Assembly (NCBI GenBank): GCA_015143295.1
Contig: CM026555.1
Span: 801,207-865,206 of the forward strand
Direction: 5' to 3'
Length of the DNA: 64,000 bases
DNA from: Tetracentron sinense
Taxonomy: Eukaryota > Streptophyta > Magnoliopsida > Trochodendrales > Trochodendraceae
Numbering within the stretch: the first letter of the stretch is position 1; each line of letters begins with the position of its first letter. A program made the position numbers and the translations under genes. This document shows positions 1,155 to 44,864 of the stretch, piece by piece. The notes below the pieces were generated by a model. That model ran no database searches. It saw only the letters and a program-made list of their open reading frames with translations, and was not told where the DNA came from.

Positions 1155-1166
1155 TGGTATCAGAGC
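1155..1166 (+). promoter_or_regulatory. Primer-binding site of element A
   Basis: tggtatcagagc lies two bases after the LTR end and is complementary to the 3' end of plant initiator Met-tRNA. Confidence 0.9.
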
Positions 1167-1212
1167 GGGTTCACTAATTTATTAGTGCGATCTCATTCTA
1201 TATTCGGTGAAT

Positions 1213-4882: not shown

Positions 4883-6189
4883 TGTAAGTCCAAAATATCT
4901 TGGCTAATTATGTATCAAAACGTAAGTCTAAGTGGAGTCATTTTAAAGTCAACTTGTCATACTTGGTAAAGCTTCAAGAAGCCGAAGAAAAGAGAAGAAA
5001 TCTACATCAAGTATCACCTCCGGATCTAGGAAGGTAAGTGACTTAGTGACCCATTACCTAGGTTGGTTTTTGACTTAGAACACCTTTTTATCAACCTAGG
5101 AGGTTAATATAATTCCATAAACAAGGTTATTGTATTCAAGCCTTTCAAAACACTCGAAATTGGCTAAGTATGGAATGAAGGATCTATCCTCCTCCATGTT
5201 GGATAGATCGGTGGTGTAAGAAAATGTATGAGGATTTTTTCCAGAGAGTTAGATTTTGAAGGATCTATCCTTGGTAATGAAGGATAGATCGATCAACATA
5301 GGAATTGATCTATCAGTGCTTTGATGGATAGATCGGTGCTTTGATGGATAGATCGGTGCTTTGTTGGATAGATCGGTGCTTTGCATGGATAGATCGGTGC
5401 TCACCTTAGATAGATCCTTCAGTGCAAAAAATCGAGTCCTATTCAAATACAAACTCTTTGGAATCTATAAATACGAATTCTATTGACCTAATTCGTTGAG
5501 ATCTTATTAGTTTGTGAGAGTAAAGGCTGGAGAACTCTCTCCTAGGGTTTCCTTTATTCTTCATTGATTATAGTTGATCCCTCCTCTCACAACCTCTCTA
5601 GAGAATGCAAGAATAACTTCTCTATTCTTAGCTCTTGCATTGTGTGATCTTCATGGTTTTAAGATCCCTCTAGAGATTGTTAGAACATTAATTTGACAAT
5701 CCCGACACGTGTGTGTCTTTGGCCGGTGTTTGTGATCCGGAGCCTTCGTAGAAGGAGATCGATCCGAGAAGGATCGTGGTTGTTGTGGAGATCTAAGAGA
5801 AGTAAAAGCGACTGTGGTTGATCACGGGACTTGCGGGTACGTGATGACTTTTCGAGGCGTGGAGGACTAAGAACTGAAGGATCGTAGTGTCGAGTCCGAA
5901 GGAGTCAAGTTCGAGTCTTGTAAGTTCTTGTTGACTTTGTCTTAGTGATATCTCTTTGCTGGACTAGGTCCCGTGGTTTTTCCCGGAAGGGTTTCCACGT
6001 AAAAAACCTTGTGTTGTGGTTTGCTTGTTTTCCTTTTCCGCACTTGATTATTATTTTTCCTTAGTTAATAATTTAATTATTAAATCTTAAAAATGGTAGA
6101 AAGAATTATAGGGAAAGCTAGCATCCCCCCTTGGGTTTGTGAGTTCTCAACTCGAATATTTTATTTGGGGTTCACCGAGTGATTTTTCA
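4883..6189 (+). repeat. 3' LTR of element A (1307 bp)
   Basis: It starts TGTAAGTCC after the polypurine tract and ends TTTTTCA. It matches the visible 5' LTR throughout. It contains the U3 array (5307-5400) and TATA box (5466-5473). The next base belongs to the gag of element C. Confidence 0.95.
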
Positions 6190-13637: not shown

Positions 13638-14389
13638 TGTCACGACCCGAAACCCACCCTAGGAGTTAGAGTGAACTTTGGACGACTAATCATGACTTGC
13701 TTGACAACTAACCTGCAAAACCCACAGAGCATATACGATAGAGGACAAAACAGCGGAAACATACTCTAACATGGTATAGCGGAAGTCTACCAAACCTCTA
13801 TGTATATACATAATCAATCCAAGTTTATACAAAAAGAATCCAAAAGAAAGTGCGGACATGCCCGCCAAAATACATAAATCTGACTCTCGTCTCACCCACA
13901 GCTAATCTACTCAGAATCTACAACCACCTATTGGTAACCCTCTACTGGAGGTTCCTCCAAAGGCTCCTCGACATACTCCTCCTCCACCCATGGACCAGGA
14001 GCACAAACATCAAATGGAGTAGCAGCTCCCTCAGAACCTGCCGACATAAGAAGTACGGCTGAGCATGGAATACTCAGCGGGTACTGAATACTAACCAACA
14101 ATTATAGCATAAACATGGCAATACATAATCAGGAGAAATTCATATTTGTCACACGGAAACAATTTATATCATACAAGGAAGTAAAGCAGTTTATAATCAT
14201 GCTTGAAACTCGTAGAAAACCGATAAATCCTCTTGAAAACATCGTGCACCTGACTTGACTTGAAATATCTTTTCGCACGTGAAAGCTTGTCTTGTCTATC
14301 TTGCTTGATTCTTGTATGTCATGTCATGTCATGCATGCTTGCTTGTGATCATGTAACTTGTGAGATGCACTTGTGAGATGTCTTGAGAG

Positions 14390-14520
14390 GGAAGGGAGAC
14401 CCTTCTTTATGCAATGCACTTGCGAGGGAAGGGAGACCCTTCTTTATGATATGTATGCACTTGCGAGGGAAGGGAGACCCTTCTTCATGATATGCACTTG
14501 GGAGTGAGGGGAGACCCCTC
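14390..14520. repeat. Short tandem repeat in LTR of Gypsy1
   Basis: About four copies of gcgagggaagggagaccc separated by variable spacers. The matching block in the 5' LTR is near 22620-22750. Confidence 0.7.
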
Positions 14521-15433
14521 GTGGAATGTTGGTTCTTGTTTCTTGTGAAAAGCGAGGTAAAACATATCTTAGGATATGTCCCACCTCTAACCATGTTCTT
14601 GAAAACCTCGATAAATCATGCCATGCATGCCGTGCTTGTGGTAACCGTGTACATACTTGCATTTAAATTTAAACATGACCATTGGGTAATTTCACAACAC
14701 ATATAGTGTCAAAGATTAAGCAATTCAATATTCATACCATTTAGGGAAAACAGGAAACACACTATCATAGGCCCTAGCAATATTCAGAATTTATTAGGCA
14801 TGCATTTCTTAATTTACAGCTCACTGTATTCACCTTGGCATTTCATCAAACATGGTGTGTTCATTATGGATTTACCCTACAACATGCTTTTCTAGAGGGT
14901 TTTACTCAATCATACATGTATGTTTATTATTGGAACAATGCCCTTCCCCGTTTTAATCATCACCACACAACCACTGGCATCCAATCGCCCCTTACATCTC
15001 CATTCACCATTCACCATTCACCATTCACCATTTACCATTCATCCATCTCACAGCACATGTGTAAGTGAAAGAAAATAAAGAGAAATGAGGGGAAAAGAGG
15101 ATCTATAACTAGGAGGGTAGTAAAAAGTACCGACCTTGAAGAAATGAGGAAGAAACCCTCTTTCCAAATGACTGTGAGTTGCTGCCCTAGCTTGATTCGT
15201 GAGCTCCACGAATGCTTGCACCGAAATCTTGAAGAAAACGGGCTTGAGGTTGATCTAGGGTTTCAAACCCTTTGATTTCTCTCCCAAATGGAAACCCTAG
15301 GTTGGAATCGCCTTCTCCTCTTTCTTCTATTCTCTCAAACTCTCTAAGTGTCGAATGATGCCCTAAAGGCTCAGATTAAACTCTTAAGGTAAGAGTGAAC
15401 TGACCAAAAGACCGAAATACCCTTACTGGGATT

Positions 15434-16357
15434 TCTGTGAATAGTGCTGTGAATAGTGCCAACTCGTGGTGCTTGTGAATAGTGCAAACTCGTGGTGCTT
15501 GTGAATAGTGCCACTCGTGGTCCGTGAATAGTGCCACTCGTGGTGCTTGTGAATAGTGCCACTCGTGGTCCGTGAATAGTGCCACTCGTGGTGCTTGTGA
15601 ATAGTGCAAACTCGTGGTGCTTGTGAATAGTGCCACTCGTGGTCCGTGAATAGTGCCACTCGTGGTGCTTCTGAATAGTGCCACTCGTGGTCCGTGAATA
15701 GTGCCACTCGTGATGCTTGTGAATAGTGCAAACTCGTGGTGCTTGTGAATAGTGTCACTCGTGGTCCGTGAATAGTGCCACTCGTGGTGCTTGTGAATAG
15801 TGCCACTCGTGGTGCTTGTGAATAGTGTCAACTCGTGGTCGGTGAATAGTGCAAACTCGTGGTGCTTGTGAATAGTGCCACTCGTGGTCCGTGAATAGTG
15901 CCACTCGTGGTGCTTGTGAATAGTGCCACTCGTGGTGCTTGTGAATAGTGCAAACTCGTGGTGCTTGTGAATAGTGCCACTCGTGGTCCGTGAATAGTGC
16001 CACTCGTGGTGCTTCTGAATAGTGCCACTCGTGGTCCGTGAATAGTGCCACTCGTGATGCTTGTGAATAGTGCAAACTCGTGGTGCTTGTGAATAGTGTC
16101 ACTCGTGGTCCGTGAATAGTGCCACTCGTGGTGCTTGTGAATAGTGCCACTCGTGGTGCTTGTGAATAGTGTCAACTCGTGGTCGGTGAATAGTGCAAAC
16201 TCGTGGTGCTTGTGAATAGTGCCACTCGTGGTCCGTGAATAGTGCCACTCGTGGTGCTTCTGAATAGTGCCACTCGTGGTCCGTGAATAGTGCCACTCGT
16301 GATGCTTGTGAATAGTGCCACTCGTGGTGCCATGAATAGTGCAAACCCGTGGTGCTT
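15434..16357. repeat. Minisatellite in U3 of Gypsy1, left LTR
   Basis: Roughly 37 units of 23-26 bp of the form gaatagtgccactcgtggt plus gctt or cc, with variants containing gcaaactcg. Several variants recur in order with a 344-bp higher-order period. The apparent reading frames across it result from units lacking stop codons. The right LTR holds the equivalent array at 23668-24575, shorter by about 14 bp. Confidence 0.9.
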
Positions 16358-16702
16358 GTCAAGGGTGACGAACCCGTTGTCACGTCGTCTCATGTACAGC
16401 GTGCCCGTGGTGAGTTGTACAACGTGCCCGTGGTGAATTGTACAACGTACCCGTGGTGAGCTGTACAACGGATGCACACAGTATACGTTTTTCTACAGGT
16501 ACAGACTGTTTTGGTCATATCTTTTGACTCGTTCGTCCGATTTTGACGATTCAACTTGCGTTGTGTTCGTACTTCGAAGAGGAACAATTCTGGCATTTTG
16601 AAATTTCCAAATTCTTCCTCATTTATTAATCATACCTCTTAAAAAGGCAAGATGACAACGAAAGTGTCATGTATTAAGCATGAAAAAGTCTGGGGCTCTA
16701 CA

Positions 16703-16715
16703 TCCTTCCCCCCTT
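16703..16715 (-). promoter_or_regulatory. Polypurine tract of Gypsy1
   Basis: The minus strand reads aaggggggaagga directly before the 3' LTR. Confidence 0.85.
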
Positions 16716-16804
16716 ACAAAAATTTCGTCCTCGAAATTCAGACACTACTTGCATTAGAATTCAAAAAGAACATTACATGTCATATACAGACTTCACACAG
16801 AAAC

Positions 16805-19800
16805 TCATTCAAGTAATTCTGGGTACTTTGCTTTGACTTCGGCTTCACGCTCCCATGTAGCTTCTTCCCGAGCATGGTGTTGCCATTGCACAAGAACCAA
16901 AGGGATTGTCTTGTTGCGAAGCACTTGATTCCTTCGATCTAAAATCTGGACTGGCTTTTCAATCAAGGTGAGGTCCTCTCGAATCTCCAACTGTTCCAAG
17001 TCTATGACATGCGAAGGATCCGCAAGATACTTCCGAAGCATGGACACATGGAAGACGTTATGAACTGCAGCCATGTGAGGTGGAAGAGCTACTCGATAAG
17101 CAACTTCACCAACCCGTGTGATAATCTCAAAAGGCCCAACATACCGAGGACTGAGCTTGCCTCGCTTCCCAAATCTCATGATCCCTTTGCTAGGAGATAC
17201 TTTCACAAAAACTTGATCCCCTACTTGAAATTCCAAGTCCCTACGGCGTGTGTCCGCATAACTTTTCTGGCGATCTTGAGCGGCTTTCAATCGATCCCGG
17301 ATGATCTTAACTGTGTTTGCAGTTTGCTCAATCAACTCCGGACCAAGCACTTTCCTTTCTCCTACCTCATCCCAATAGAGAGGAGACCTACAACTTCGCC
17401 CATACAAGGCCTCAAATGGTGCCATTTGAATACTTGCCTGATAGCTGTTATTATAAGCGAATTCAACCAGAGGCAAGTGCTCTTCCCAACTGCCTCTGAA
17501 ATCTAACATACAAGCTCGAAGCATGTCTTCAATGACTTGGTTCACTCTCTCGGTTTGTCCATCCGTTTGTGGATGAAAGGCGGTGCTGAAATCAAGTTGG
17601 GAACCCATAGCCTCTTGGAAACTTTTCCAAAATCTTGACGTGAATCTTGGATCCCGATCTGACACAATACTGACTGGCACCCCATGTAGTCTAACTACTT
17701 CCTTGATATATAGTGCAGCCAACTGACTAGAGTTGAAGGTAGTACGGTAGGGTAAGAAATGAGCGGACTTTGTCAAACGATCCACTACTACCCATATCGC
17801 ATCTGAGCTCCTTGCCGTCTTTGGCAAGCCAACTATGAAATCCATGGATATGTTCTCCCATTTCCACTCAGGAATAGGAAGGGAATGCAATAAACCGGCG
17901 GGTCGCATATGTTCTGCTTTCACTTGTTGACACACCAAGCACCGTGCTACATATTCCGCAACATCCCTCTTCATATTCCGCCACCAAAAGTGACTCTTGA
18001 GGTTCCGGTACATCTTTGTACCCCCTGGATGCACTGTGTACTTCGAACGATGTGCCTCATCCATGATCTCTCGTCGAAGATCTGCGTTGGCCGGAACACA
18101 CAACCTTCCTTTGAATGTGATAGCACCCCGACTAGTGAAAGAGAAGTCCTCACTACCCTTAGCAACTTCCTTGTCCCGATAAGCCGACAATTCAGCATCC
18201 ATGTCTTGATATTCTTGGATCAAATCTATAATGTACGGCCGAACCGTAACATTTGCCAAGGTAGGACCACGGATAGAGTCATTCACACTTATGTCCAGAT
18301 TTGCCAAATCTTGTAGTAGCTTCCATTCTTGAACCAACATATGTGCTAACAACCCTTGAGGTCTTCTACTCAAAGCATCTGCCACTACATTTGCTTTACC
18401 CGGGTGGTATTGAATGGTACAATCATAGTCTTTCAAAAATTCCATCCAACGCCGTTGCCTTAGATTCAGCTCCTTTTGGGAAAAGAGATACTTGAGACTC
18501 TTGTGATCAGTGAACACATAGAACTCCATCCCATAAAGGTAATGACGCCAAATCTTAAGTGCAAACACGACCGCCGCAAGCTCCAAGTCGTGCGTGGGAT
18601 AATTCTTCTCATGCTCCTTCAATTGCCTTGATGCATAGGCAATGACTTTCTTGTGTTGCATAAGCACACATCCAAGTCCAACGTGTGAGGCATCACTGTA
18701 CACCTCATACCCAAGAGGTCCGGATGGCACTGTAAGGACAGGAGCTGTAGTAAGCCTCTTCTTCAGTTCCGTGAAACTGATCTCGCACTTATCACTCCAT
18801 ACAAACTTGGCATTCTTCCTTGTCAGGTAAGTGAGCGGTGCTGCAAGGCTAGAGAAACCCTCTACGAATCTCCTGTAGTAGCCTGCCAACCCAAGAAAGC
18901 TGCGTATCTCGGTAACACTCTTGGGCCTCGCCCAACTCATAACTGCTTCGATCTTCTTCGGATCCACCGAGATACCTTCTGCAGAAACCACGTGGCCTAG
19001 GAATGCCACCTCTTCCAACCAAAACTCACACTTGCTAAGTTTGGCGTATAGCTTGTGTTCTCTTAGCATTTCCAAAGCAAGGCATAGGTCGCGTGTGTGA
19101 TCTTCCCGTGTCTGGGAATAGACCAAGATGTCATCAACAAATACAATCACGCACCTATCAAGATATGGCCGGAACACCCGGTTCATCAAATCCATAAAGG
19201 CTGCCGGCGCGTTCGTGAGTCCAAAAGGCATCACCAAGAACTCGTAGTGCCCATACCGAGTCCTGAAAGCAGTTTTGGGAACATCTTCCACCTTAATCTT
19301 CAACTGGTGATAACCCGATCGAAGATCTATCTTCGAGAAAAATCTCGCTCCCTTCAACTGATCAAACAAGTCATCAATCCTAGGCAAGGGATACCTATTC
19401 TTTATGGTGACTTTGTTCAATTGTCGGTAATCGACACACATCCGCATCGAGCCATCTTTCTTCTTGACAAACAACACCGGGGCACCCCACGGTGAGACAC
19501 TTGGTCGAATGAAACCAAGGCCTTGTAATTCCTCCAACTGAGTCTTCAACTCCTTAAGTTCAATAGGGGCCATTCTATATGGAGCTCTGAAAACAGGAGC
19601 CGTGCCTGGTGCAAGCTCGATCACAAACTCAATCTCCCTATCTGGAGGCAATCCTGGCAACTCTTCTGGAAATACATCTAGGAATTTACTCACAACCGGA
19701 ATAGTCGATGAGTCCTTTGCTTCAGGGTTAGCTAAGCTCAACGCCGCAAAGCGGGCAATGTCTCTACTTCTCAACCCTCGAAAGTGAAATGGTTTTCCTT

Positions 19801-20130
19801 CTACTGGCTTGAAGAGTACCATTTTCTCAAAGCAAGCTACATGCCCATGATGTGCTGCTAACCAATCCATTCCCAATATAACATCAAAGTCTTGGAATCC
19901 AAGGACGATGAGATCAACCGCCAACTCGTGGCTCCCAACTTGGACCACACTATCTCCATACACTTTATCTGCCAATACTGTTTTGCCGAGAGGAGTCGAA
20001 ATGGCTAACTCCAGTTCTAGCTGACTTGGTTCTACAGAAAAGCCTTCTGAAAAACTCGGTGAGACAAATGAATGAGTAGATCCGGTATCAATCAACACTC
20101 GAGCCAAACACTCATTGACTAGTAGGGCTC
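16805..20130 (-). CDS. Pol of Gypsy1: protease, RT, RNase H, integrase, chromodomain
   Basis: The open frame has no stop from 20130 down to the stop codon ending at 16805. It has no ATG of its own near the start; it reads as the second exon of gag-pol, joined in phase across the intron 20131-20273. Counting from Ala at 20104-20106: aspartic protease DTGS at 7-10; RT from about 175, active site FVDD at 323-326; RNase H from about 466 (YSDAS, later TDHKS); integrase zinc-binding HHCC about 693-726; integrase catalytic Asp 756, Asp 817 and Glu 853; chromodomain about 1050-1098 with aromatic residues kept (VQWQHH, EATWE). All key residues are present, so the protein looks functional. It would copy the RNA and insert the DNA into the genome, with the chromodomain guiding it to chromatin. 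Confidence 0.93.
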
Positions 20131-20273
20131 CTGAAATTTTAGCTAGTTATGTCAATTCAAGCATCAACAGTGTATACACATAGGTACATACATATATAGC
20201 ATACCAAGTACGTACACATGGGATAAACATAACATAACCATCACGAATAAGGAAAATAACTCCAAACGCGTAC
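20131..20273 (-). other. Putative spliceosomal intron between gag and pol of Gypsy1 (143 bp)
   Basis: On the minus strand the donor is CAAG|GTACGC and the acceptor TTTCAG|GAGCC. The sequence between is T-rich, as plant introns are. The upstream exon ends after codon base 1 and the downstream exon begins with bases 2 and 3 of a codon, so splicing joins the gag and pol frames exactly. Without splicing, gag runs into the intron and stops at 20164. Gypsy2 has the same sites with a 144-bp intron. Confidence 0.75.
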
Positions 20274-21513
20274 CTTGCACCACATCGTCAGATGCAAGTG
20301 CATCACCCTCTGTCAAGGCAAAAACTCGCCCCTGGTTCGCCTGGCGAGACTGTGGTGTAGACCGGGTAGTCTGAGATGACGCCTGATATGATCCTGCTGG
20401 GCGTGCTGGTGGACTAATCCCCTGAGACTGGCCTGATAAATGCCGACTGGGGCAATCCCTGATCATGTGGCCCTGGCGACCGCAATGATAACATCCACCA
20501 GATGCTCTTCGACAATCTCCTGCCGGATGCCTTTTGCCGCATGAAGTGCAGACCTCGTGTGTATAAGTCGGAGGGGCTGGAAGCGGAGCATACCTCATCG
20601 TCTGAGGTGCAACAGGCCGTGGGGCTGGAAGAGCCTGAGGTCTCGGTGCCTGAGGCACATACTGCCGTGGAGCTGGAGGCGCATAAGAAGGCCTCATCGA
20701 TGGTGCTGGCCACGCATACTGATAACGAGTCCGCCTCTCTGGAGGTGCTGAACTACTAGCTTGGCCTCTCGCCCACTCCCTCTTCTTGGACACTGTCTCC
20801 GAATTGGCCTCGACCAATAAGGCCTTATCTACTACCTCAGGGTAGGTAGTATGCCTGAAAACGGACACCTTCTCCATAATCACATCCTTGAGCCCTTGCT
20901 CAAATCTCCTCGCCTTCATTGCCTCAGTAGCAACCATATGAGGCGCAAATCTCGACAACTCCGAGAACTTGGCCTCGTATTGTGCCACTGACATCAAACC
21001 TTGCTCAAGGTTGATGAATTCTCTCTCTTTCTTTTCCCGTGCTCCAATCGGAAAATACTTTTTGTAAAAAGTATCCTTGAACTCCTCCCAAGTCCAAGGT
21101 AGACCCTGCATGGTCAAATCTCTCGTCCTCAGTGCGGACAACCACCAATGGTGGGCTTCGCCTTCTAGCATGAAAGCTGCCCATGCTACCCTCTCCTCCT
21201 CTGTAGGTGAGAGGACCGTAAGGATCTTCTCCATCTGGAGGATCCATGCCTCCGCAGCAAGAGGGTCCACACTCCCATGGAATGGTGGAGGCCTCAATCT
21301 CCTAAATGCCTCAACTCCAACGGTACGATGTACTGGAGCTGCGGGCGGTGGAGTAGGTGCCGCCGATGATGGTATAGCCTGTCGAGCCGCAAGTATGGCG
21401 AGTGTCTCAGCAATAGAGCCTAAGACTCGAGAGAGGTCCGGCTGCTCATCCTCATCCCGTGAAGAAGAGGAAGCTCTGGTATGTGGTCCACGACCCCGTG
21501 TGTTCCGTCTCAT
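20274..21513 (-). CDS. Gag of Gypsy1 (first exon of gag-pol)
   Basis: Starts at ATG 21513-21511 (MRRNTRGRG). A retrotransposon Gag domain spans about residues 70-220, with the typical AEAWILQMEKI and WTWEEFKDTFYKKYFP motifs. A proline-rich linker follows, then CTSCGKRHPAGDC and a CCHC knuckle CYHCGRQGHMIRDC near residues 330-360. The spliced frame gives 413 complete codons here; the unspliced frame continues to 20164 for 449 aa. Gag packages the RNA in virus-like particles. No premature stop was seen, in contrast to Gypsy2. Confidence 0.9.
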
Positions 21514-21851
21514 GACTCAAGTCCTGAGAATAATAACACCACATGAGTCTAACTTTAAACCACAGTTTACTTCAATGCCATTTCACAATAATCCAATTTG
21601 TATTAGTTGTATAATACTAATATACATCGCATTAAGTCATCAGAGTATTTATAATATTATACTTTGGTGTTCTAGCGTTCCTAAGGCTCATACTTGGTTG
21701 AAACAACCATTTTGACTAAGACTAAAGTTTAGTCTTACACTTGGATCAAGACTCTCTTCCGACTTACTTTCTTCCTAACTTGTTTCCTGACATATGCTCT
21801 TGTCAAGCCGTGGTATAAGATTCTAAGTGACCCTAGAGACCTAAAGCCTAA
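21514..21851 (-). other. 5' untranslated leader of Gypsy1
   Basis: Between the primer site and the gag ATG lie 338 bp without an evident ORF, containing A/T-rich runs. Confidence 0.6.
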
Positions 21852-21863
21852 GCTCTGATACCA
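21852..21863 (-). promoter_or_regulatory. Primer-binding site of Gypsy1
   Basis: tggtatcagagc on the minus strand, four bases from the inner LTR end. Confidence 0.88.
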
Positions 21864-21867
21864 CTTC

Positions 21868-24800
21868 TGTCACGACCCGAAACCCACCCTAGGAGTTAGA
21901 GTGAACTTTGGACGACTAATCATGACTTGCTTGACAACTAACCTGCAAAACCCACAGAGCATATACGATAGAGGACAAAACAGCGGAAACATACTCTAAC
22001 ATGGTATAGCGGAAGTCTACCAAACCTCTATGTATATACATAATCAATCCAAGTTTATACAAAAAGAATCCAAAAGAAAGTGCGGACATGGCCGCCAAAA
22101 TACATAAATCTGACTCTCGTCTCACCCACAGCTAATCTACTCAGAATCTACAACCACCTATTGGTAACCCTCTACTGGAGGTTCCTCCAAAGGCTCCTCG
22201 ACATACTCCTCCTCCACCCATGGACCAGGAGCACAAACATCAAATGGAGTAGCAGCTCCCTCAGAACCTGCCGACATAAGAAGTACGGCTGAGCATGGAA
22301 TACTCAGCGGGTACTGAATACTAACCAACAATTATAGCATAAACATGGCAATACATAATCAGGAGAAATTCATATTTGTCACACGGAAACAATTTATATC
22401 ATACAAGGAAGTAAAGCAGTTTATAATCATGCTTGAAACTCGTAGAAAACCGATAAATCCTCTTGAAAACATCGTGCACCTGACTTGACTTGAAATATCT
22501 TTTCGCACGTGAAAGCTTGTCTTGTCTATCTTGCTTGATTCTTGTATGTCATGTCATGTCATGCATGCTTGCTTGTGATCATGTAACTTGTGAGATGCAC
22601 TTGTGAGATGTCTTGAGAGGGAAGGGAGACCCTTCTTTATGCAATGCACTTGCGAGGGAAGGGAGACCCTTCTTTATGATATGTATGCACTTGCGAGGGA
22701 AGGGAGACCCTTCTTCATGATATGCACTTGGGAGTGAGGGGAGACCCCTCGTGGAATGTTGGTTCTTGTCTTCTTGTGAAAAGTGAGGTAAAACATATCT
22801 TAGGATATGTCCCACCTCTAACCATGTTCTTGAAAACCTCGATAAATCATGCCATGCATGCCGTGCTTGTGGTAACCGTGTACATACTTGCATTTAAATT
22901 TAAACATGACCATTGGGTAATTTCACAACACATATAGTGTCAAAGATTAAGCAATTCAATATTCATACCATTTAGGGAAAACAGGAAACACACTATCATA
23001 GGCCCTAGCAATATTCAGAATTTATTAGGCATGCATTTCTTAATTTACAGCTCACTGTATTCACCTTGGCATTTCATCAAACATGGTGTGTTCATTATGG
23101 ATTTACCCTACAACATGCTTTTCTAGAGGGTTTTACTCAATCATACATGTATGTTTATTATTGGAACAATGCCCTTCCCCGTTTTAATCATCACCACACA
23201 ACCACTGGCATCCAATCGCCCCTTACATCTCCATTCACCATTCACCATTCACCATTCACCATTTACCATTCATCCATCTCACAGCACATGTGTAAGTGAA
23301 AGAAAATAAAGAGAAATGAGGGGAAAAGAGGATCTATAACTAGGAGGGTAGTAAAAAGTACCGACCTGAAGAAATGAGGAAGAAACCCTCTTTCCAAATG
23401 ACTGTGAGTTGCTGCCCTAGCTTGATTCGTGAGCTCCACGAATGCTTGCACCGAAATCTTGAAGAAAACGGGCTTGAGGTTGATCTAGGGTTTCAAACCC
23501 TTTGATTTCTCTCCCAAATGGAAACCCTAGGTTGGAATCGCCTTCTCCTCTTTCTTCTATTCTCTCAAACTCTCTAAGTGTCGAATGATGCCCTAAAGGC
23601 TCAGATTAAACTCTTAAGGTAAGAGTGAACTGACCAAAAGACCGAAATACCCTTACTGGGATTTCCGTGAATAGTGCCACTCGTGGTGCTTGTGAATAGT
23701 GCAAACTCGTGGTGCTTGTGAATAGTGCCACTCGTGGTCCGTGAATAGTGCCACTCGTGGTGCTTGTGAATAGTGCCACTCGTGGTCCGTGAATAGTGCC
23801 ACTCGTGGTGCTTGTGAATAGTGCAAACTCGTGGTGCTTGTGAATAGTGCCACTCGTGGTCCGTGAATAGTGCCACTCGTGGTGCTTCTGAATAGTGCCA
23901 CTCGTGGTCCGTGAATAGTGCCACTCGTGATGCTTGTGAATAGTGCAAACTCGTGGTGCTTGTGAATAGTGTCACTCGTGGTCCGTGAATAGTGCCACTC
24001 GTGGTGCTTGTGAATAGTGCCACTCGTGGTGCTTGTGAATAGTGTCAACTCGTGGTCGGTGAATAGTGCAAACTCGTGGTGCTTGTGAATAGTGCCACTC
24101 GTGGTCCGTGAATAGTGCCACTCGTGGTGCTTGTGAATAGTGCCACTCGTGGTGCTTGTGAATAGTGCAAACTCGTGGTGCTTGTGAATAGTGCCACTCG
24201 TGGTCCGTGAATAGTGCCACTCGTGGTGCTTCTGAATAGTGCCACTCGTGGTCCGTGAATAGTGCCACTCGTGATGCTTGTGAATAGTGCAAACTCGTGG
24301 TGCTTGTGAATAGTGTCACTCGTGGTCCGTGAATAGTGCCACTCGTGGTGCTTGTGAATAGTGCCACTCGTGGTGCTTGTGAATAGTGTCAACTCGTGGT
24401 CGGTGAATAGTGCAAACTCGTGGTGCTTGTGAATAGTGCCACTCGTGGTCCGTGAATAGTGCCACTCGTGGTGCTTCTGAATAGTGCCACTCGTGGTCCG
24501 TGAATAGTGCCACTCGTGATGCTTGTGAATAGTGCCACTCGTGGTGCCATGAATAGTGCAAACCCGTGGTGCTTGTCAAGGGTGACGAACCCGTTGTCAC
24601 GTCGTCTCATGTACAGCGTGCCCGTGGTGAGTTGTACAACGTGCCCGTGGTGAATTGTACAACGTACCCGTGGTGAGCTGTACAACGGATGCACACAGTA
24701 TACGTTTTTCTACAGGTACAGACTGTTTTGGTCATATCTTTTGACTCGTTCGTCCGATTTTGACGATTCAACTTGCGTTGTGTTCGTACTTCGAAGAGGA

Positions 24801-24920
24801 ACAATTCTGGCATTTCGAAATTTCCAAATTCTTCCTCATTTATTAATCATACCTCTTAAAAAGGCAAGATGACAACGAAAGTGTCATGTATTAAGCATGA
24901 AAAAGTCTGGGGCTCTACAT
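21868..24920 (-). repeat. 5' LTR of Gypsy1 (3053 bp)
   Basis: Near-identical to 13638-16702. The main differences are about 14 bp at the edge of the minisatellite and a few single bases. It contains the minisatellite at 23668-24575. Confidence 0.93.
23668..24575. repeat. Minisatellite in U3 of Gypsy1, right LTR
   Basis: Same 23-26 bp units and 344-bp higher-order period as the left array. Confidence 0.9.
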
Positions 24921-34762: not shown

Positions 34763-35478
34763 TGTCGCGACCCAAAACCCACCCTAGGAGTTAGAGTGAA
34801 TCTTGGACGACTCAATCATGACTTACATGACTTGCTTGACAAACCAACCTGCAAAAACCCACAGAGCATATACAATAGAAGACATTATAGCGGAACATAA
34901 CTATAAAACACAGCGGAAGTCTAACAAACCTCTAAGTATATACATATGGTCCAAGTTTATACAAAAAGTAACCAGAAGAAAGTGCGGACAGACCCGCCAA
35001 AATACATGGATATAATCTCTCATCTCACCCACAGCTAATCCACTCAGAATCTACAACCACCTAATGGTAACCCTCTACTGGAGGTTCCTCAAAAGGCTCC
35101 TCGACGTACTCCTCCTCCACCCATTGACTCGGAGCACAGATATCAAATGGAGCAGCTGCTCCGCAGTCACCTGCCGACAGAAGAAGTACGGCTGAGCATG
35201 GAATACTCAGCGGGTACTAAGCACTAACCAACAGTCATAGCATACAGATAGCATACATAAAGGATGAAGCAAGTTGCATATATAGAACAGGAACAATTTA
35301 TACTATACAAGGAAGTAAAGCAATTTATATTCATGCTTGCATTCAGAAAGACTGATAAAACCCTTGAAAACATCGTGCACTTGACTTGACTTGAAGTACC
35401 CTTTTTCGTGATTAGGAACTTGTTAACCGTGTCATGCTTGTCATGCTTGCATTTTCATAATTTAAACATGTTCACATG

Positions 35479-35840
35479 CCTAGTTTCCGTTCATAGTCCG
35501 TCGCAACTAGTACCCTATATGCAGATGGGTATGCCTAGTTGCCGTTCATAGCCCGTCGCAACTAGCATTCATGCAGAATGTGAATGCCTAGTTGCCGTTT
35601 ATAGCCCGTCGCAACTAGCATCCATGCGGAATGTGAATGCCTAGTTGCCGTTCATAGCCCGTCGCAACTAGCATCCATGCGGAATGTGAATGCCTAGTTG
35701 CCGTTCATAGCCCGTCGCAACTAGCATTCATGCGGAATGTGAATGCCTAGTTGCCGTTCATAGCCCGTCGCAACTAGCATCCATGCGGAATGTGAATGCC
35801 TAGTTGCCGTTCATAGCCCGTCGCAACTAGCATCCATGCG
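35479..35840. repeat. 54-bp tandem repeat, seven units, Gypsy2 left LTR
   Basis: The unit begins gcctagttgccgttcatagc and includes cccgtcgcaactagcat. The first unit is diverged. The right LTR has six units (about 43144-43453). Confidence 0.9.
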
Positions 35841-36846
35841 TGTAATGCCATGCAGAGTTATGCGTGTCATGTGATGCTATGTTATGCGTGTCATGCGATG
35901 CTATGCATGTCATGCGAGGGGATGAGAGACCTTTCCCTATGCAATGCATGATTGTCTTGCCCTTTGTCAAAAGCGAAGTGAAACATATCTTAGGATATGC
36001 CCCACCTCTACGTCCCATACTTAAAACATCGGTAAATCACGTCATTTCATACGTGCTTGTGAGATCGTGTGCATACTTGCATTTGGAATTAAACATGGCA
36101 ATTTGGGGTAATTCACAAAGCATAGCATATAACAATTTAAGTGAGTAATAATCTACGCATTTTAAGAAATGTAAGAAACACACTATCATGAACCCTAACA
36201 ATTTCAAGAGCAATTGAGCATGATTTCCCTTAATTTATCATTTATTTTGTTCACCTTGGCATTTCATCAAACATGGGGTGTGTTCATTATTCACTTAACC
36301 TAGATCATGCTTTTCTAGGTGGGTTATGCTCACATCACACTTGTATGTTCATTATTAGTACAATGCCCTTTCCCATTCGTTCATCACATCATCCACACGG
36401 CATCCATTCGCCAACATCCATCTTTATTCACCATTCATACCACCAATCTCATAACACATATATAAGTGAAGGAAAACAAGGAGAAACAAAGGAAAAGGAA
36501 AGCTATAACTAGGAGGGTAGTAAGAAGTACCGACCTTGAACAATGAGGAAGAAATCCCCTTTTCAAAACGACCGTGAGTTGCTGCCCTAGCTTGAGGAGA
36601 GTGCCCCACACGAGCTTGAGCCGAGATCTCGAAGAAAATGGACTTGAGGTGAGTGTGGGTTCACAACCCTTTGATTTCTCCTCCAAAAATCAAACCCTAG
36701 GTTAGGGATCACCTTCTTCTCCTCTCCTTAGCTCTCAATCTTCTAAGTATTGTAAAATAAGCCCTAAAGGCTCGGGCAAGACTCTTAAGGTAAGAGTAAA
36801 CTGCCCAAAAGACTAAAACACCCTTACTAAGTTTTCTGCAAAAACG

Positions 36847-37035
36847 CGAATACCGAGCGATCGGTGTTAATGACCGATCGATCGGTTGCCTACCGATCGA
36901 TCGGTTTCATAACCGAGCGATCGGTTAAAATTTCACTCTCTGAAAAATTTCCCCATACAAAAATCTCGACCAGTCGATAGCCTCCGAGCGATCGGTTTTG
37001 GACCGATCGATCGCTCCATGGACCGATCGATCGGT
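36847..37035. repeat. CCGATCGATCGG palindrome cluster in U3 of Gypsy2, left LTR
   Basis: About eight sites of the form accgagcgatcggt or accgatcgatcggt occur within 190 bp. The right LTR has the same cluster at about 44464-44650. Confidence 0.85.
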
Positions 37036-37247
37036 GGTCTGCAGGTCCAAACTGTTTTGGCCATAACTTTTGACTCGTTCGTCCGATTTCGACGATTCAA
37101 CTTGCGTTGGGTTCGTACTTCGAAAACGAACATTTCTGACGTTTCAGAATTTCCAATTTCTTTCTTATTTATTAATTATACCTCTTTAAAGGAAAAATGG
37201 CAACGAAAGTGTCATGCATTAAATGTGAAAAGGTCCGGGGCTCTACA

Positions 37248-37260
37248 TCCTCCCCCCCTT
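37248..37260 (-). promoter_or_regulatory. Polypurine tract of Gypsy2
   Basis: The minus strand reads aaggggggggaga-type purines directly before the 3' LTR. Confidence 0.8.
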
Positions 37261-37348
37261 ACAAAAATTTCGTCCTCGAAATTTAGACGCTACTTGCATT
37301 ACAAACCAAGAAGAAAATTACAAGTCATACACAAACTTATACAAAAAC

Positions 37349-40300
37349 TCATTCAAATAATTCTGGGTACTTCGCTTTGACTTCGGCTTCACGCTCCCAT
37401 GTAGCTTCTTCCCGAGCATGGTGTTGCCATTGCACTAGAACCAAAGGGATAGTCTTGTTGCGAAGCACTTGATCTCTTCGATCCAAAATCTGAACCGGCT
37501 TTTCAATCAAGGTGAGGTCCTCTCGAATCTCCAACGGTTCCAAGTTTATGACATGCGAAGGATCCGCAATGTACTTCCGAAGCATAGACACATGGAAGAC
37601 GTTGTGAACTGCGGCCATGTGAGGTGGGAGAGCTACCCTGTAAGCAACCTCACCAACTCGCGTGATAATCTCAAAAGGCCCAACATACCGAGGACTGAGC
37701 TTGCCTCGCTTTCCAAATCTCATGATCCCTTTACTAGGAGATACTTTCACAAAAACTTGATCCCCTACTTGAAATTCCAAGTCCCTACGGCGCGTGTCCG
37801 CGTAACTTTTCTGGCGATCTTGAGCGGCTTTCAATCGATCCCGAATGATCTTAACTGTGTTTGCAGTTTGCTCAATCAATTCTGGACCAAGTAATTTCCT
37901 TTCTCCTACCTCATCCCAATAGAGAGGAGACCTACAACTTCGCCCATACAAGGCCTCAAATGGTGCCATTTGGATACTTGCCTGATAGCTGTTACTGTAG
38001 GCGAATTCAACCAAAGGCAAATGCTCTTCCCAACTGCCTCTGAAATCCATCATACAAGCCCGAAGCATGTCTTCAATGACTTGGTTCACTCTCTCGGTTT
38101 GTCCATCTGTCTGTGGATGAAAAGCGGTGCTGAAATCGAGTCGGGAACCCATAGCCTCCTGGAAGCTTTTCCAGAATCGTGATGTGAATCTTGGATCCCG
38201 ATCCGACACAATACTGACAGGCACTCCATGCAACCTCACCACTTCCTTGATGTACAAAGCAGCTAACTGACTAGAGTTGAAAGTAGTTCGGTAAGGCAAG
38301 AAGTGAGCGGACTTCGTCAAACGATCCACTACTACCCATATCGCATCTGAACCCCTTGCCGTCTTTGGCAAGGCAACTATGAAATCCATGGATATGTTCT
38401 CCCATTTCCACTCGGGAATCGGAATGGACTGTAATAGACCTGCGGGCCACATGTGTTCTGCTTTCACCTGTTGACACACCAAGCACCGTGCTACATATTC
38501 CGCAACCTCCCTCTTCATATTCCGCCACCAAAAGTGACTCTTGAGGTTCCGGTACATCTTCGTACCCCCTGGATGCACTGTGTACTTCGAACGGTGTGCT
38601 TCGTCCAAAATCTCTCTTCGAAGATCTGCATTGGCTGGGACGCACAGTCTTCCCTTGAATGTGATAGCACCCCGACTAGTGAGAGAAAAGTCTTCACTGC
38701 CCTCGGCAACTTCCTTGTCCCGGAAAGCCAACAATTCCGCATCCATGGCTTGATATTCTTGGATCAAATCTATAATGTAAGGCCGAACCGTAACATTTGC
38801 CAAGGTAGGACCACGGACAGAGTTATTCACACTGATGTCCAGATTTGCCAAATCTTCTAGTAGCTTCCATTCGTGAACCAACATGTGTGCTAACAACCCC
38901 TGAGGTCTTCTACTCAAAGCATCAGCCACTACATTTGCCTTACCCGGATGGTATTGAATGGTACAATCATAGTCCTTCAGAAATTCCATCCAACGCCGTT
39001 GCCTTAGATTCAATTCCTTTTGGGAAAAGAGGTACTTGAGGCTCTTGTGGTCCGTATACACATAGAATTCCACCCCGTATAAGTAATGTCGCCAGATCTT
39101 GAGTGCAAACACGACTGCGGCAAGCTCTAAGTCGTGCGTGGGGTAATTCTTCTCATGCTCCTTCAATTGCCTTGATGCATAGGCAATGACCTTCTTGTGT
39201 TGCATAAGCACACATCCAAGTCCAACGTGTGAGGCATCACTGTACACCTCATACCCAAGAGGTCCGGATGGCACTGTAAGGACAGGAGCTGTAGTAAGCC
39301 TCTTCTTCAGTTCCGTGAAACTGATCTCACACTTGTCGCTCCAAACAAACTGCGCATTCTTCCGTGTCAGGTGAGTAAGCGGTGCTGCAAGGCTAGAGAA
39401 ACCCTCTACGAATCTCCTGTAGTAGCCTGCCAGCCCAAGAAAGCTGCGTATCTCAGTAACACTCTTGGGCCTCGCCCAACTCATAACAGCTTCTATCTTC
39501 TTCGGATCAACGGAGATGCCTTCCGCGGAAACAACGTGGCCTAGGAATGCCACCTCTTCCAACCAAAACTCACACTTGCAAATTTTGGCGTATAGCTTGT
39601 GCTCTCTTAACATTTCCAATGCAAGGCGAAGGTCGCGTATGTGATCTTCCCGTGTCTGGGAATAGACCAAAATGTCATCAACAAATACAATCACGCACCG
39701 ATCTAGGTATGGTCGGAACACCCGGTTCATCAAATCCATAAAGGCTGCCGGCGCGTTCGTGAGACCAAAAGGCATCACCAAGAACTCATAGTGCCCATAT
39801 CGAGTCCTGAAAGCAGTTTTGGGAACATCTTCCACCTTAATCTTCAACTGGTGATAACCCGATCGAAGATCTATCTTTGAGAAAAATCTTGCTCCCTTCA
39901 ACTGATCGAACAAGTCGTCAATCCTAGGCAATGGATACCTATTCTTTATAGTGACTTTGTTCAATTGCCGGTAATCGACACACATCCGCATCGAACCATC
40001 TTTCTTCTTGACAAACAACACTGGGGCACCCCACGGTGAGACACTTGGTCGAATGAAGCCAAGGCTTTGTAATTCTTCCAACTGAGCCTTTAACTCTTTG
40101 AGTTCAATAGGGGCCATTCTATACGGAGCCCTGCAAACAGGAGCTGTGCCTGGTGCAAGCTCGATCATAAACTCAATCTCCCTGTCTGGAGGCAATCCTG
40201 GCAACTCCTCTGGAAATACATCCAGGAACTCACTCACAACCGGAATAGTTGATGAGTCCTTTGCCTCGGGGTTAGCTACGCCCAACGCCGCAAAACGAGC

Positions 40301-40674
40301 AATAGATCTGCTTTTCAACCCGCGAAAGTGGAATGGTTTTCCTTCTACTGGCTTGAAGAGTACCATTTTCTCAAAGCAAGCTACATGCCCATGATGTGCT
40401 GCTAACCAATCCATTCCCAATATAACATCAAAGTCTTGGAATCCAAGGACGATGAGATCAACCGCCAACTCGTGGCTTCCAACTTGGACCACACCATTTC
40501 TATACACTTTATCTGCCAATACTGTTTTGCCAAGAGGAGTCGAAATGGCTAACTCCGGTTCTAGCTGACTTGGCTCCCCAGAAAAGCCTTCTGAAAAACT
40601 CGGCAAGACAAACGAATGAGTAGACCCGGTATCAATCAACACTCGAGCCAAATACTCATTGACTAGTAGGGTTC
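37349..40674 (-). CDS. Pol of Gypsy2: protease, RT, RNase H, integrase, chromodomain
   Basis: Open from 40674 to the stop ending at 37349, the same length as the Gypsy1 Pol and highly similar along its whole length. Protease DTGS, RT FVDD, RNase H YSDAS, integrase HHCC plus Asp, Asp, Glu, and the C-terminal chromodomain are all present. As in Gypsy1 there is no proper start codon at the beginning, and the frame joins gag across the intron 40675-40818. The enzyme domains look sound, but translation as Gag-Pol would be blocked by the upstream TAG in gag. Confidence 0.92.
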
Positions 40675-40818
40675 CTGAAATTTTAGCTAGTTACGTCAAT
40701 TCAAGCCTCAACAGTGTATACACGTAGGTAAATATATATATAGCATACCAACTACGTACACAAGGAATAAAACATAACACAACAATCACGAATAAGGAAA
40801 ATAACTCCTAACGCGTAC
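40675..40818 (-). other. Putative spliceosomal intron between gag and pol of Gypsy2 (144 bp)
   Basis: The donor CAAG|GTACGC and acceptor TTTCAG|GAACC are at the same codon phase as in Gypsy1. The intron carries substitutions and net one-base length change against Gypsy1, yet the flanking exons stay in phase. Unspliced, a TAG stop appears four codons into the intron. Confidence 0.75.
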
Positions 40819-42067
40819 CTTGCACCACATCGTCAGATGCAAGTGCATCACCCTCTGTCAAGGCAAAAACTCGCCCCTGGTTCGCCTGGCGAGACTGAGG
40901 TGTAGACCGGGTAGTCTGAGATGACGCCTGATATGATCCTGCTGGGCGTGCTGGTGGCCTAATCCCCTAAGACTGGCCTGGTAAATGCCGGGTAGGGCAA
41001 TCCCTGATCACGTGGCCCTGGCGACCACAGTGAAAACATCCACCCGATGCTCTTAGGCAATCCCCAGCTGGGTGCCGTCGGCCGCATGAAGGGCAGGCCT
41101 CGTGTGTGCGGGTAGGAGGGGCCTGAGGTGGAGCATATCTCGCCACCTGAGGTGCAACTGGCCATGGGGCCGGGAGAGCCTGAGGTCGAGGTGCCTGTGG
41201 CACGTACTGCCGTGGTGCTGGGGCCGCATAAGTCGGCCTCATCGGTGGTGCTGGCCATGTATACTGATAAGGGCCAGTACGATTCTGCCTCTCTGGAGGT
41301 GCTGAACTACTGGCTTGGCCTCTCGCCAACTCTCTCTTCTTAGACACTGCTTCAGAATTGGCCTCAACCAATAAGGCCTTATCCACTACTTCGGCGTAAG
41401 TGGCGTGCCTGAAAACCGACACTTTCTCCATGATGACATCCTTGAGCCCTTGCTTAAACCTCCTCGCCTTCATTGCCTCGGTGGCAATCATATGTGTCGC
41501 GAAGCGTGATAGCTCCGAGAACTTAGCCTCATAAGCGGCCACAGACATCGAACCTTGCTCAAGGTTGATGAATTCTCTCTCTTTCTTTTCCCGAGCTCCA
41601 ACCGGGAAATACTTCTTATAGAACGTGTCCTTAAACTCCTCCCAAGTCCAAGGTTGACCCTGCATGGTCAAGTCTCGTGTCCTCAATGCGGACAACCACC
41701 AATGGTGGGCTTTACCCTCTAGCATGAAAACTGCCCATGCTACCCTATCCTCCTCTGTAGGCGAGAGGACCGCAAAAATCTTCTCCATCTGGAGGATCCA
41801 CGCCTCTGCTGCGAGAGGGTCCACACTCCCATGGAAGGATGGAGGCCTCAATCTCCTGAATGCCTCAACTCCAGCTGTACGATGTACTGGAGCTGCGGGC
41901 GGTGGAGTAGATGCCGCTGATGCCGGTATAGTTTGCCGAGCCGCCAGGATGGCGAGTGTCTCAGCAATAGAGCCTAAGACCTGAGAGAGGTCCGGCTGCT
42001 CATCCTCATCTCTAGAAGAAGATGAAGCTCTGGTGTGTGGTCCACGACCCCGTGTGCCCCGCCTCAT
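40819..42067 (-). pseudogene. Gag of Gypsy2, with premature TAG
   Basis: ATG at 42067-42065 (MRRGTRGRG). The Gag domain and both knuckles (CPSCGRRHPAGDC, CFHCGRQGHVIRDC) are intact. TAG at 40969-40967 ends the protein at 366 aa, where Gypsy1 has a Gln codon. Beyond it the frame is open to the intron donor at 40818, so a single C-to-T change is the only break seen. Confidence 0.9.
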
Positions 42068-42412
42068 GACTAAAGTCCTGAGAACAATAGCACCACATGA
42101 GTCTCACTTGAAAACACAGTTTATTTCAATGTCGTTTCACAATAATTCAATCTGTATTAGTTGTATAATACTAATATACATCACATCAAGTAATCAGAGT
42201 ATTCATCACATTATACTTATACTTTAGTGTTCTAGCGTACCTAGGACCCGTACTTGGTTAAAGCAACCATTTTAGACTAAGACTAAAGTTTAGTCTTACA
42301 CTTGGAACCAGACTCGCTCCCGTCTTACTTCCTTCCTAACTTGTTTCCTGACATATGCTCTTGTCAAGCCGTGGCATAAGATTCTAAGTGACCCTAGAGA
42401 CCTAAAGCCTAA

Positions 42413-42424
42413 GCTCTGATACCA
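42413..42424 (-). promoter_or_regulatory. Primer-binding site of Gypsy2
   Basis: tggtatcagagc on the minus strand, four bases from the LTR. Confidence 0.88.
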
Positions 42425-42428
42425 CTTC

Positions 42429-44859
42429 TGTCGCGACCCAAAACCCACCCTAGGAGTTAGAGTGAATCTTGGACGACTCAATCATGACTTACATGACTTG
42501 CTTGACAAACCAACCTGCAAAAACCCACAGAGCATATACAATAGAAGACATTATAGCGGAACATAACTATAAAACACAGCGGAAGTCTAACAAACCTCTA
42601 AGTATATACATATGGTCCAAGTTTATACAAAAAGTAACCAGAAGAAAGTGCGGACAGACCCGCCAAAATACATGGATATAATCTCTCATCTCACCCACAG
42701 CTAATCCACTCAGAATCTACAACCACCTAATGGTAACCCTCTACTGGAGGTTCCTCAAAAGGCTCCTCGACGTACTCCTCCTCCACCCATTGACTCGGAG
42801 CACAGATATCAAATGGAGCAGCTGCTCCGCCGTCACCTGCCGACAGAAGAAGTACGGCTGAGCATGGAATACTCAGCGGGTACTAAGCACTAACCAACAG
42901 TCATAGCATACAGATAGCATACATAAAGGATGAAGCAAGTTGCATATATAGAACAGGAACAATTTATATCATACAAGGAAGTAAAGCAATTTATATTCAT
43001 GCTTGCATTCAGAAAGACTGATAAAACCCTTGAAAACATCGTGCACTTGACTTGACTTGAAGTACCCTTTTTCGTGATTAGGAACTTGTTAACCGTGTCA
43101 TGCTTGTCATGCTTGCATTTTCATAATTTAAACATGTTCACATGCCTAGTTTCCGTTCATAGTCCGTCGCAACTAGTACCCTATATGCAGATGGGTATGC
43201 CTAGTTGCCGTTCATAGCCCGTCGCAACTAGCATTCATGCAGAATGTGAATGCCTAGTTGCCGTTCATAGCCCGTCGCAACTAGCATCCATGCGGAATGT
43301 GAATGCCTAGTTGCCGTTCATAGCCCGTCGCAACTAGCATTCATGCGGAATGTGAATGCCTAGTTGCCGTTCATAGCCCGTCGCAACTAGCATCCATGCG
43401 GAATGTGAATGCCTAGTTGCCGTTCATAGCCCGTCGCAACTAGCATCCATGCGTGTAATGCCATGCAGAGTTATGGGTGTCATGTGATGCTATGTTATGC
43501 GTGTCATGCGATGCTATGCATGTCATGCGAGGGGATGAGAGACCTTTCCCTATGCAATGCATGATTGTCTTGCCCTTTGTCAAAAGCGAAGTGAAACATA
43601 TCTTAGGATATGCCCCACCTCTACGTCCCATACTTAAAACATCGGTAAATCACGTCATTTCATACGTGCTCGTGAGATCGTGTGCATACTTGCATTTGGA
43701 ATTAAACATGGCAATTTGGGGTAATTCACAAAGCATAGCATATAACAATTTAAGTGAGTAATAATCTACGCATTTTAAGAAATGTAAGAAACACACTATC
43801 ATGAACCCTAACAATTTCAAGAGCAATTGAGCATGATTTCCCTTAATTTATCATTTATTTTGTTCACCTTGGCATTTCATCAAACATGGGGTGTGTTCAT
43901 TATTCACTTAACCTAGATCATGCTTTTCTAGGTGGGTTATGCTCACATCACACTTGTATGTTCATTATTAGTACAATGCCCTTTCCCATTCGTTCATCAC
44001 ATCATCCACACGGCATCCATTCGCCAACATCCATCTCTATTCACCATTCATACCACCAATCTCATAACACATATATAAGTGAAGGAAAACAAGGAGAAAC
44101 AAAGGAAAAGGGAAGCTATAACTAGGAGGGTAGTAAGAAGTACCGACCTTGAACAATGAGGAAGAAATCCCCTTTTCAAAACGACCGTGAGTTGCTGCCC
44201 TAGCTTGAGGAGAGTGCCCCACACGAGCTTGAGCCGAGATCTCGAAGAAAATGGACTTGAGGTGAGTGTGGGTTCACAACCCTTTGATTTCTCCTCCAAA
44301 AATCAAACCCTAGGTTAGGGATCGCCTTCTTCTCCTCTCCTTAGCTCTCAATCTTCTAAGTATTGTAAAATAAGCCCTAAAGGCTCGGGCAAGACTCTTA
44401 AGGTAAGAGTAAACTGCCCAAAAGACTAAAACACCCTTACTAAGTTTTCTGCAAAAACGCGAATACCGAGCGATCGGTGTTAATGACCGATCGATCGGTT
44501 GCCTACCGATCGATCGGTTTCATAACCGAGCGATCGGTTAAAATTTCACTCTCTGGAAAATTTCCCCATACAAAAATCTCGACCAGTCGATAGCCTCCGA
44601 ACGATCGGTTTTGGACCGATCGATCGCTCCATGGACCGATCGATCGGTGGTCTGCAGGTCCAAACTGTTTTGGCCATAACTTTGACTCGTTCGTCCGATT
44701 TCGACGATTCAACTTGCGTTGGGTTCGTACTTCGAAAACGAACATTTCTGACGTTTCGGAATTTCTAATTTCTTCCTTATTTATTAATTATACCTCTTTA
44801 AAGGAAAAATGGCAACGAAAGTGTCATGCATTAAATGTGAAAAGGTCCGGGGCTCTACA
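42429..44859 (-). repeat. 5' LTR of Gypsy2 (2431 bp)
   Basis: Differs from the left LTR by about a dozen single bases and one 54-bp unit. Followed by the ggttc duplication at 44860-44864. Confidence 0.93.
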
Positions 44860-44864
44860 GGTTC

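Follow-up and report, generated by a model that had tools for sequence, protein, structure and literature searches.

The window analyzed here is a 64,000-nt stretch of the Tetracentron sinense genome (assembly GCA_015143295.1, contig CM026555.1, positions 801,207 to 865,206) that contains two related long terminal repeat (LTR) retrotransposons, Gypsy1 and Gypsy2. Both lie on the minus strand, which the original prediction for this DNA did not give. In each element the gag region is separated from the protease end of pol by a short interval with GT-AG ends, and we consider it very probable that this interval is a spliceosomal intron of a high-copy plant chromovirus. The pol open reading frame (ORF) is 1100 aa long in both elements and encodes protease (PR), reverse transcriptase (RT), RNase H (RH), integrase (INT) and a chromodomain. 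The two LTRs differ at 5 of 3053 aligned sites in Gypsy1 and at 13 of 2434 in Gypsy2, and because of this low divergence both insertions are taken to be recent. The parts of the two elements, in window coordinates, are as follows.

13638..24919, minus strand: Gypsy1 LTR element, with 5' LTR 21868-24919, 3' LTR 13638-16702 and the 5-bp target site duplication (TSD) TCGGT, delimited by self-BLAST, LTR ends and TSD
21852..21863, minus strand: TGGTATCAGAGC, a putative primer binding site adjoining the Gypsy1 5' LTR
20274..21513, minus strand: Gypsy1 gag exon (exon 1), with Retrotrans_gag, Ty3_capsid and zf-CCHC matches
20131..20273, minus strand: predicted Gypsy1 intron, 143 nt, GTACGC...TTTCAG, phase 1
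20151..20155, minus strand: branch-point-like TTGAC of Gypsy1, 25 nt before the acceptor
16805..20130, minus strand: Gypsy1 pol exon (exon 2), PR-RT-RH-INT-chromodomain
34763..44859, minus strand: Gypsy2 LTR element, with 3' LTR 34763-37247, 5' LTR 42429-44859 and the 5-bp TSD GGTTC
40819..42067, minus strand: Gypsy2 gag exon, with zinc knuckle, Retrotrans_gag and Ty3_capsid matches and an in-frame TAG at 40967-40969
40675..40818, minus strand: predicted Gypsy2 intron, 144 nt
37349..40674, minus strand: Gypsy2 pol exon

The Gypsy1 interval, read from 20273 down to 20131, is bounded as CAAG/GTACGC...AATTTCAG/GAGCC. Its removal would join the two frames after the first base of a codon, giving the predicted junction ...GTGCAAG followed by GARCCCTACTAG, and the original prediction of a 143-nt, phase 1 interval stands. 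So does its companion claim that the 144-nt interval of Gypsy2 (40818 down to 40675) has the same donor and acceptor: the first 9 and the last 19 nt are common to both, and 11 substitutions and one 1-nt indel separate the two over 143 aligned nt (7.7%). The pol exons differ by 7.0% without gaps, and the last 140 nt of the gag exons by 1.4%. As in U2-type introns, the GT-AG ends are in line with the exon reading frame, and a branch-point-like motif lies near the acceptor of a T-rich body, the T content of 42-43% being unlike that of the flanks. In unspliced Gypsy1 the gag ORF continues for about 36 codons beyond the donor, extending to 20164, where it ends at a stop inside the interval. It had been claimed that gag and pol occupy different frames in these elements, which is true of Gypsy1; Gypsy2 and the 144-nt form in general, which amounts to 48 codons, hold gag and pol in one frame with in-frame stops between them. 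This 144-nt length is found in 27 of the 30 best Gypsy1-like copies. In the Gypsy1 clade it contains a single in-frame stop, TAA followed by CTAG, and Gypsy2 has a further TAG. The TAACTAG sequence itself occurs at window positions 20143-20149 and 40687-40693 (minus strand) as a read-through-type stop context that lies close to the acceptor, on its 5' side, and is in frame with gag where the interval has 144 nt; it may be due to chance or to a second expression route.

The host genome, scanned as 1.16 Gb in 1479 contigs, contains 1325 places with both exact splice contexts around an interval of 132-162 nt. An overlapping range of 112-142 nt, outside which the 144-nt form falls, returned 455 places, and the reversed-pattern control returned 0 in both cases. 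Among the first 100 listed of the 1325 places, interval lengths run from 137 to 148 nt and leave remainders of 0, 1 and 2 on division by 3 in 45, 37 and 18 cases. We collected 49 distinct intervals from 78 copies, 50 of which had been located with queries or patterns containing the interval; the donor GTACGC and the acceptor TTTCAG were each conserved in 47 of the 49. At -25, 42 of them carry the branch-point-like motif TTGAC or TTAAC, and T content is 42%. For a set chosen by exon 2 alone, 30 places were picked with known intronless places skipped, and the removal of three without exon 1 left 27 copies, of which 26 have intact GT..AG ends. Interval length is not a multiple of 3 in 18 of these 27 copies and in 36 of the 78 rows. 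One subfamily (L070-L073, L077, L078, L109-L111, L113, L117) has a 148-150-nt interval that begins GTACGCAGTTGT and is strongly diverged in its middle, with exons still about 89-95% identical to Gypsy1. L009, L010 and L011, which all have the 143-nt interval, are identical to one another over 401 nt.

Comparison with related proteins supports the predicted junction. The Pfam RVP_2 match on the pol ORF begins only at profile position 33 of 136, which would place the beginning of this domain on the gag side of the interval. In 43 of 54 related proteins, 25 of which are named as Vitis and thus not independent, the distance from the GRVFA motif to the LIDPG protease motif is exactly 31 residues; of the remainder, two have a distance of 34 residues, six are unmeasurable and three have no protease motif. 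The joined exons likewise give 31 residues, 20 from the exon 1 part GRVFALTEGDALASDDVVQG and 11 from exon 2. The surrounding 300 nt contain 104 GT..AG pairs separated by 70 nt or more, and only one of these has a length that preserves this spacing. The gag-protease frame is uninterrupted in all eight loci read from other families of the same genome (L125-L132), a sample in which seven are near-copies and for which the search query was itself an uninterrupted piece. Among eight retroelement contigs in bacterial assemblies (L001-L008), the plant-like L002, L003, L004 and L006 read through the gag-protease junction in an open frame; L002 and L003 are near-copies, L006 has a stop further upstream, and the other contigs are too short, distant or broken. 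The best segments of L005, L007 and L008 are 48%, 38% and 50% identical to the query. The presence of a eukaryote-type retroelement protein in these bacterial assemblies is most likely contamination. A scan of viral contigs found no relative, and a protein search with the gag tail as query gave no match. A 247-aa gag-like protein from a 942-nt public contig (P0056) ends DDVVQGTSSQSFITAWY, as though reading past a donor at the same place, and suggests as a lead that the interval could be more widespread.

Copies that lack the interval lack it precisely. A 30-nt exon-exon junction pattern with up to 3 mismatches was found at 47 places, and the reversed pattern at 0. In all 30 loci fetched with the junction pattern, exon 1 ends and exon 2 starts at the predicted bases. 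When exact exon anchors were allowed 0-60 nt between them, all 30 matches held only GAA or GAG, three bases of exon sequence, and no match retained a remnant of 1-57 nt of the interval; anchors keeping 58-118 nt gave five matches that are unlike in length and sequence. This pattern of precise and partial absence would not be expected under random deletion. Of three intronless copies checked, two have perfect TSDs: L039 (CAACT), which also has both outer LTR ends beside it, and L048 (GTTCA). Long open frames span the junction region in several intronless copies, with a single frame of up to 1536 aa. The proposal of a spliceosomal intron draws strong support from this precise and repeated absence elsewhere in the genome, including the two copies with perfect TSDs.

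The distribution of the two states was examined on a tree of 790 exon columns and 109 copies, 76 with the interval and 33 without, after three rows without exon 1 and five with short flanks (three of these intronless) had been dropped from 117. The rows are a non-random sample, consisting of 36 of the 47 junction copies less three and of intron-bearing copies picked by similarity to Gypsy1, Gypsy2, L052 or L058 or for their varied intervals. Presence or absence of the interval changes 21 times on the tree, with at least 17 changes forced by well-supported branches; shuffled states give a mean of 28.5. The nearest intron-bearing relatives of the 33 intronless copies are 0.13% to 11.5% away. The closest case is L050, an intronless copy inside the Gypsy2 clade, which differs from the intron-bearing L082 at 0 of 340 and 1 of 450 exon bases. 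In 14 sister pairs chosen from the nearest-relative list, with the most distant pair included, eight are identical across all 95 junction-adjoining bases and the others differ at one or more. Because the intervals are homologous, we infer that the direction of change was loss. Some copies are mosaic in their identity to Gypsy2, at 99.0% (exon 1) and 95.8% (exon 2) for L039 and 96.5% and 99.4% for L050, a pattern suggesting that lineages have recombined.

The repeated precise absence would be best explained if element RNA is spliced and the spliced product is then reverse transcribed, and three other explanations were weighed against this one. In one of these there is a single gag-pol frame and ribosomes pass one leaky TAA-CTAG stop in the interval. 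This suits the 144-nt form of the Gypsy1 clade, in which TAA then CTAG is the only in-frame stop (30 of 42 multiple-of-3 rows), and a study of a fission-yeast chromovirus counts in-frame stops as one strategy of chromoviruses and includes CTAG in its list of read-through contexts (PMC10085805). It does not suit Gypsy1 itself, with its out-of-frame 143 nt, nor the 144-nt copies of the Gypsy2 clade, which have a second in-frame stop, nor the 36 of 78 rows and 18 of 27 exon-2-chosen copies whose lengths are not multiples of 3. The read-through product would moreover carry about 48 extra residues inside a motif of fixed length in most measured relatives, and the precise absence of the interval would go unexplained. 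As a general mechanism read-through is refuted by the out-of-frame subfamilies, and we give it very little credence, although it could persist as a side path in 144-nt copies.

The other two explanations concern how the intronless copies arose. They could be remnants of an ancestral uninterrupted lineage, with the interval a plain unspliced insertion; uninterrupted families do occur in the same genome and in other plants, the tree counts have no direction of change, and mosaics such as L039 exist. Such remnants would not be expected to sit, as the intronless copies do, in many intron-bearing clades, several of these copies sharing markers to either side of the junction. The interval is also homologous throughout with fixed GT..AG ends, and out-of-frame copies have multiplied although their pol would have no expression route if unspliced. 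We regard an ancestral origin as extremely improbable as the main explanation. Alternatively, the intronless junction could have formed by deletion in the DNA, mediated by the short AGG match of the interval ends, where the donor side AAGG and the acceptor side CAGG have a few bases in common. Against this stand the 30 precise junctions, when exact anchors gave no partial deletion with 1-57 nt remaining and only 5 with 58-118 nt remaining, and the perfect TSDs of two intronless copies, although a TSD alone cannot rule out a later deletion. Microhomology-mediated deletion was rejected as the main explanation and has only the slimmest chance of being correct.

Several observations weigh against reading the interval as an intron that is repeatedly lost through spliced RNA. 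Splicing is a prediction from genomic sequence, and the role in Gag and Gag-Pol expression outlined below is a proposed one. The tree's bootstrap was not fully settled (0.965), and the tree does not give the direction of change. The figure of 17 counts state changes, and the separate events of splicing and reverse transcription may be fewer, since the intronless state could have been passed on by recombination or template switching among RNAs packaged together. L050, the member of the closest pair, has both LTRs and an imperfect TSD (agacc/tcacc). One of 18 distinct in-frame intervals is entirely free of stops (L102). Finally, it had been anticipated that indels would ignore frame in the interval and respect it in the exons. 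The outcome was clean only in part, with 26 of the 109 rows carrying frameshifting exon indels as well; relative to Gypsy1, exon indels over the 790 nt comprise 55 that shift the frame and 6 that keep it. Since so many copies have exon frameshifts too, interval length alone is weak evidence, and indel frame was discarded as a stand-alone test.

If the interval is an intron, the element RNA would be spliced in the plant, and spliced RNA would sometimes be packaged and reverse transcribed, as unspliced RNA is. The unspliced RNA would serve as the genome and would also make Gag, because in most copies the gag frame runs into a stop within the interval, and the spliced RNA would make Gag-Pol. The extent of intron retention could thus set the ratio of Gag to Gag-Pol, a job done elsewhere by frameshifting or stop read-through. 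As the original prediction had supposed, splicing would be only partial; this follows logically from the presence of the intron in more than a thousand places. That Gypsy1, with LTRs differing at only 5 of 3053 sites, has the out-of-frame 143-nt form also counts for an intron. Retention at well over a thousand places suggests either a benefit from the intron or a low rate of packaging of spliced RNA, two possibilities that are indistinguishable here. The exact patterns found 1325 intron-bearing and 30 intronless places, although they are unequal in strictness. It is possible, if not quite probable, that the intron is a selected switch between Gag and Gag-Pol, with the intron-bearing form staying ahead despite the repeated appearance of single-frame intronless daughters.

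The order RT-RH-INT followed by a C-terminal chromodomain is that of plant chromoviruses, although the Chromo profile scores of 23.2 and 22.0 bits (E 6.5e-5 and 1.5e-4) are slightly under the curated Pfam cut-off of 25.1. A provisional Tekay-type label fits the weakly scoring chromodomain, the 5-bp TSD, the LTRs of 2.4-3.1 kb and the end of pol before the LTR; the clade itself is defined by placement in an RT/RH/INT phylogeny. Unlike in CRM elements, pol and its chromodomain end before the polypurine tract (PPT) and 3' LTR (pol stop 16805, LTR edge 16702), a distinction between Tekay and CRM described in PMC3605345. Beet Bongo3, a Tekay/Del element, is similar in its 5-bp TSD, LTRs of about 2.6 kb, total length of about 11.6 kb and chromodomain upstream of the PPT (PMC3605345). 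The beet chromoviruses, Tekay included, have a continuous gag-pol ORF (PMC3605345), whereas most copies seen here are split by the predicted intron: the usual single ORF is absent from Gypsy1, Gypsy2 and, judged by pattern, the 1325 places, and is present in some intronless copies. Coding-region structure is considered insignificant for classification (PMC6317226).

Neumann and co-workers describe the polyprotein as encoded in a single ORF in most groups, with Bianca and Ogre having two ORFs and a gap (PMC6317226). In Ogre, a Ty3/gypsy element of the Tat group, the gap is an experimentally shown intron that is removed from a subset of transcripts to give the whole polyprotein (PMC6317226, citing Neumann 2003 and Steinbauerova 2008). 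Ogre elements are non-chromoviruses with a second RNase H, and their intron lies between GAG-PROT and RT in a gap averaging 274 bp. The elements studied here differ in having a chromodomain and in placing the interval, seen at 137-150 nt, ahead of the catalytic part of the protease, which is on the pol side. Bianca, a Ty1/copia element, also has two ORFs, an average of 172 bp apart, and section 13 of PMC6317226 contains no splicing test for it. BARE and EVD, likewise Ty1/copia, use splicing to separate RNA pools and set the balance of Gag to Pol (PMC3735527, PMC8892269); there splicing gives a Gag-only RNA, whereas here it would give Gag-Pol. Ogre and EVADE are the notable plant elements with introns according to a 2025 review (PMC12786077), and a sunflower study reports further spliced LTR elements, with no Tekay element in its expressed set (PMC7730604). 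The original prediction had called for a literature search on an intron at this place in Tekay elements; we found no report of one there or in another chromovirus in the literature searched, which mostly excluded subscription papers, so absence from print is not established. What appears to be novel is an arrangement that resembles Ogre in its effect but occurs in a chromovirus, with the predicted intron at the opposite side of the protease.

The window has additional repeat structure. Large tandem arrays lie within the LTRs at 15340-16640 and 23557-24690 in Gypsy1 and at 35419-35983 and 43085-43596 in Gypsy2, and they differ between the elements, with a 53-nt spacing in Gypsy2 and mixed steps, for example 48 and 122 nt, in Gypsy1. 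A pair of direct repeats at 27164-29161 and 44860-46853 is 99.45% identical; because the second begins directly at the end of Gypsy2, the pair are probably the LTRs of a further element that harbors Gypsy2 as a nested insertion. Identical direct repeats of 1152 nt at 1-1152 and 5038-6189 may be a young LTR pair, and a large inverted copy with 83% identity (699-4610 and 13176-9276) has the head-to-head layout of related elements.

Plant chromoviruses usually have a single ORF (PMC6317226, PMC3605345, PMC10085805), a habit that, as we frame it, leaves the question of how they make more Gag than Pol. The family described here has split and unsplit forms in one genome with many changes of state between them, so that a comparison of copy number, age and expression should reveal what an element gains or loses when Gag and Pol are separated. 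The intronless copies provide DNA-level evidence that spliced retrotransposon RNA has repeatedly re-entered the genome, and annotators should be aware that an apparent gag-pol "frameshift" in a plant element may be an intron. If the intron is indeed a selected switch, its loss would be a recurrent near-dead end, and this genome would be a replicated natural experiment on Gag/Pol separation in retroelements.
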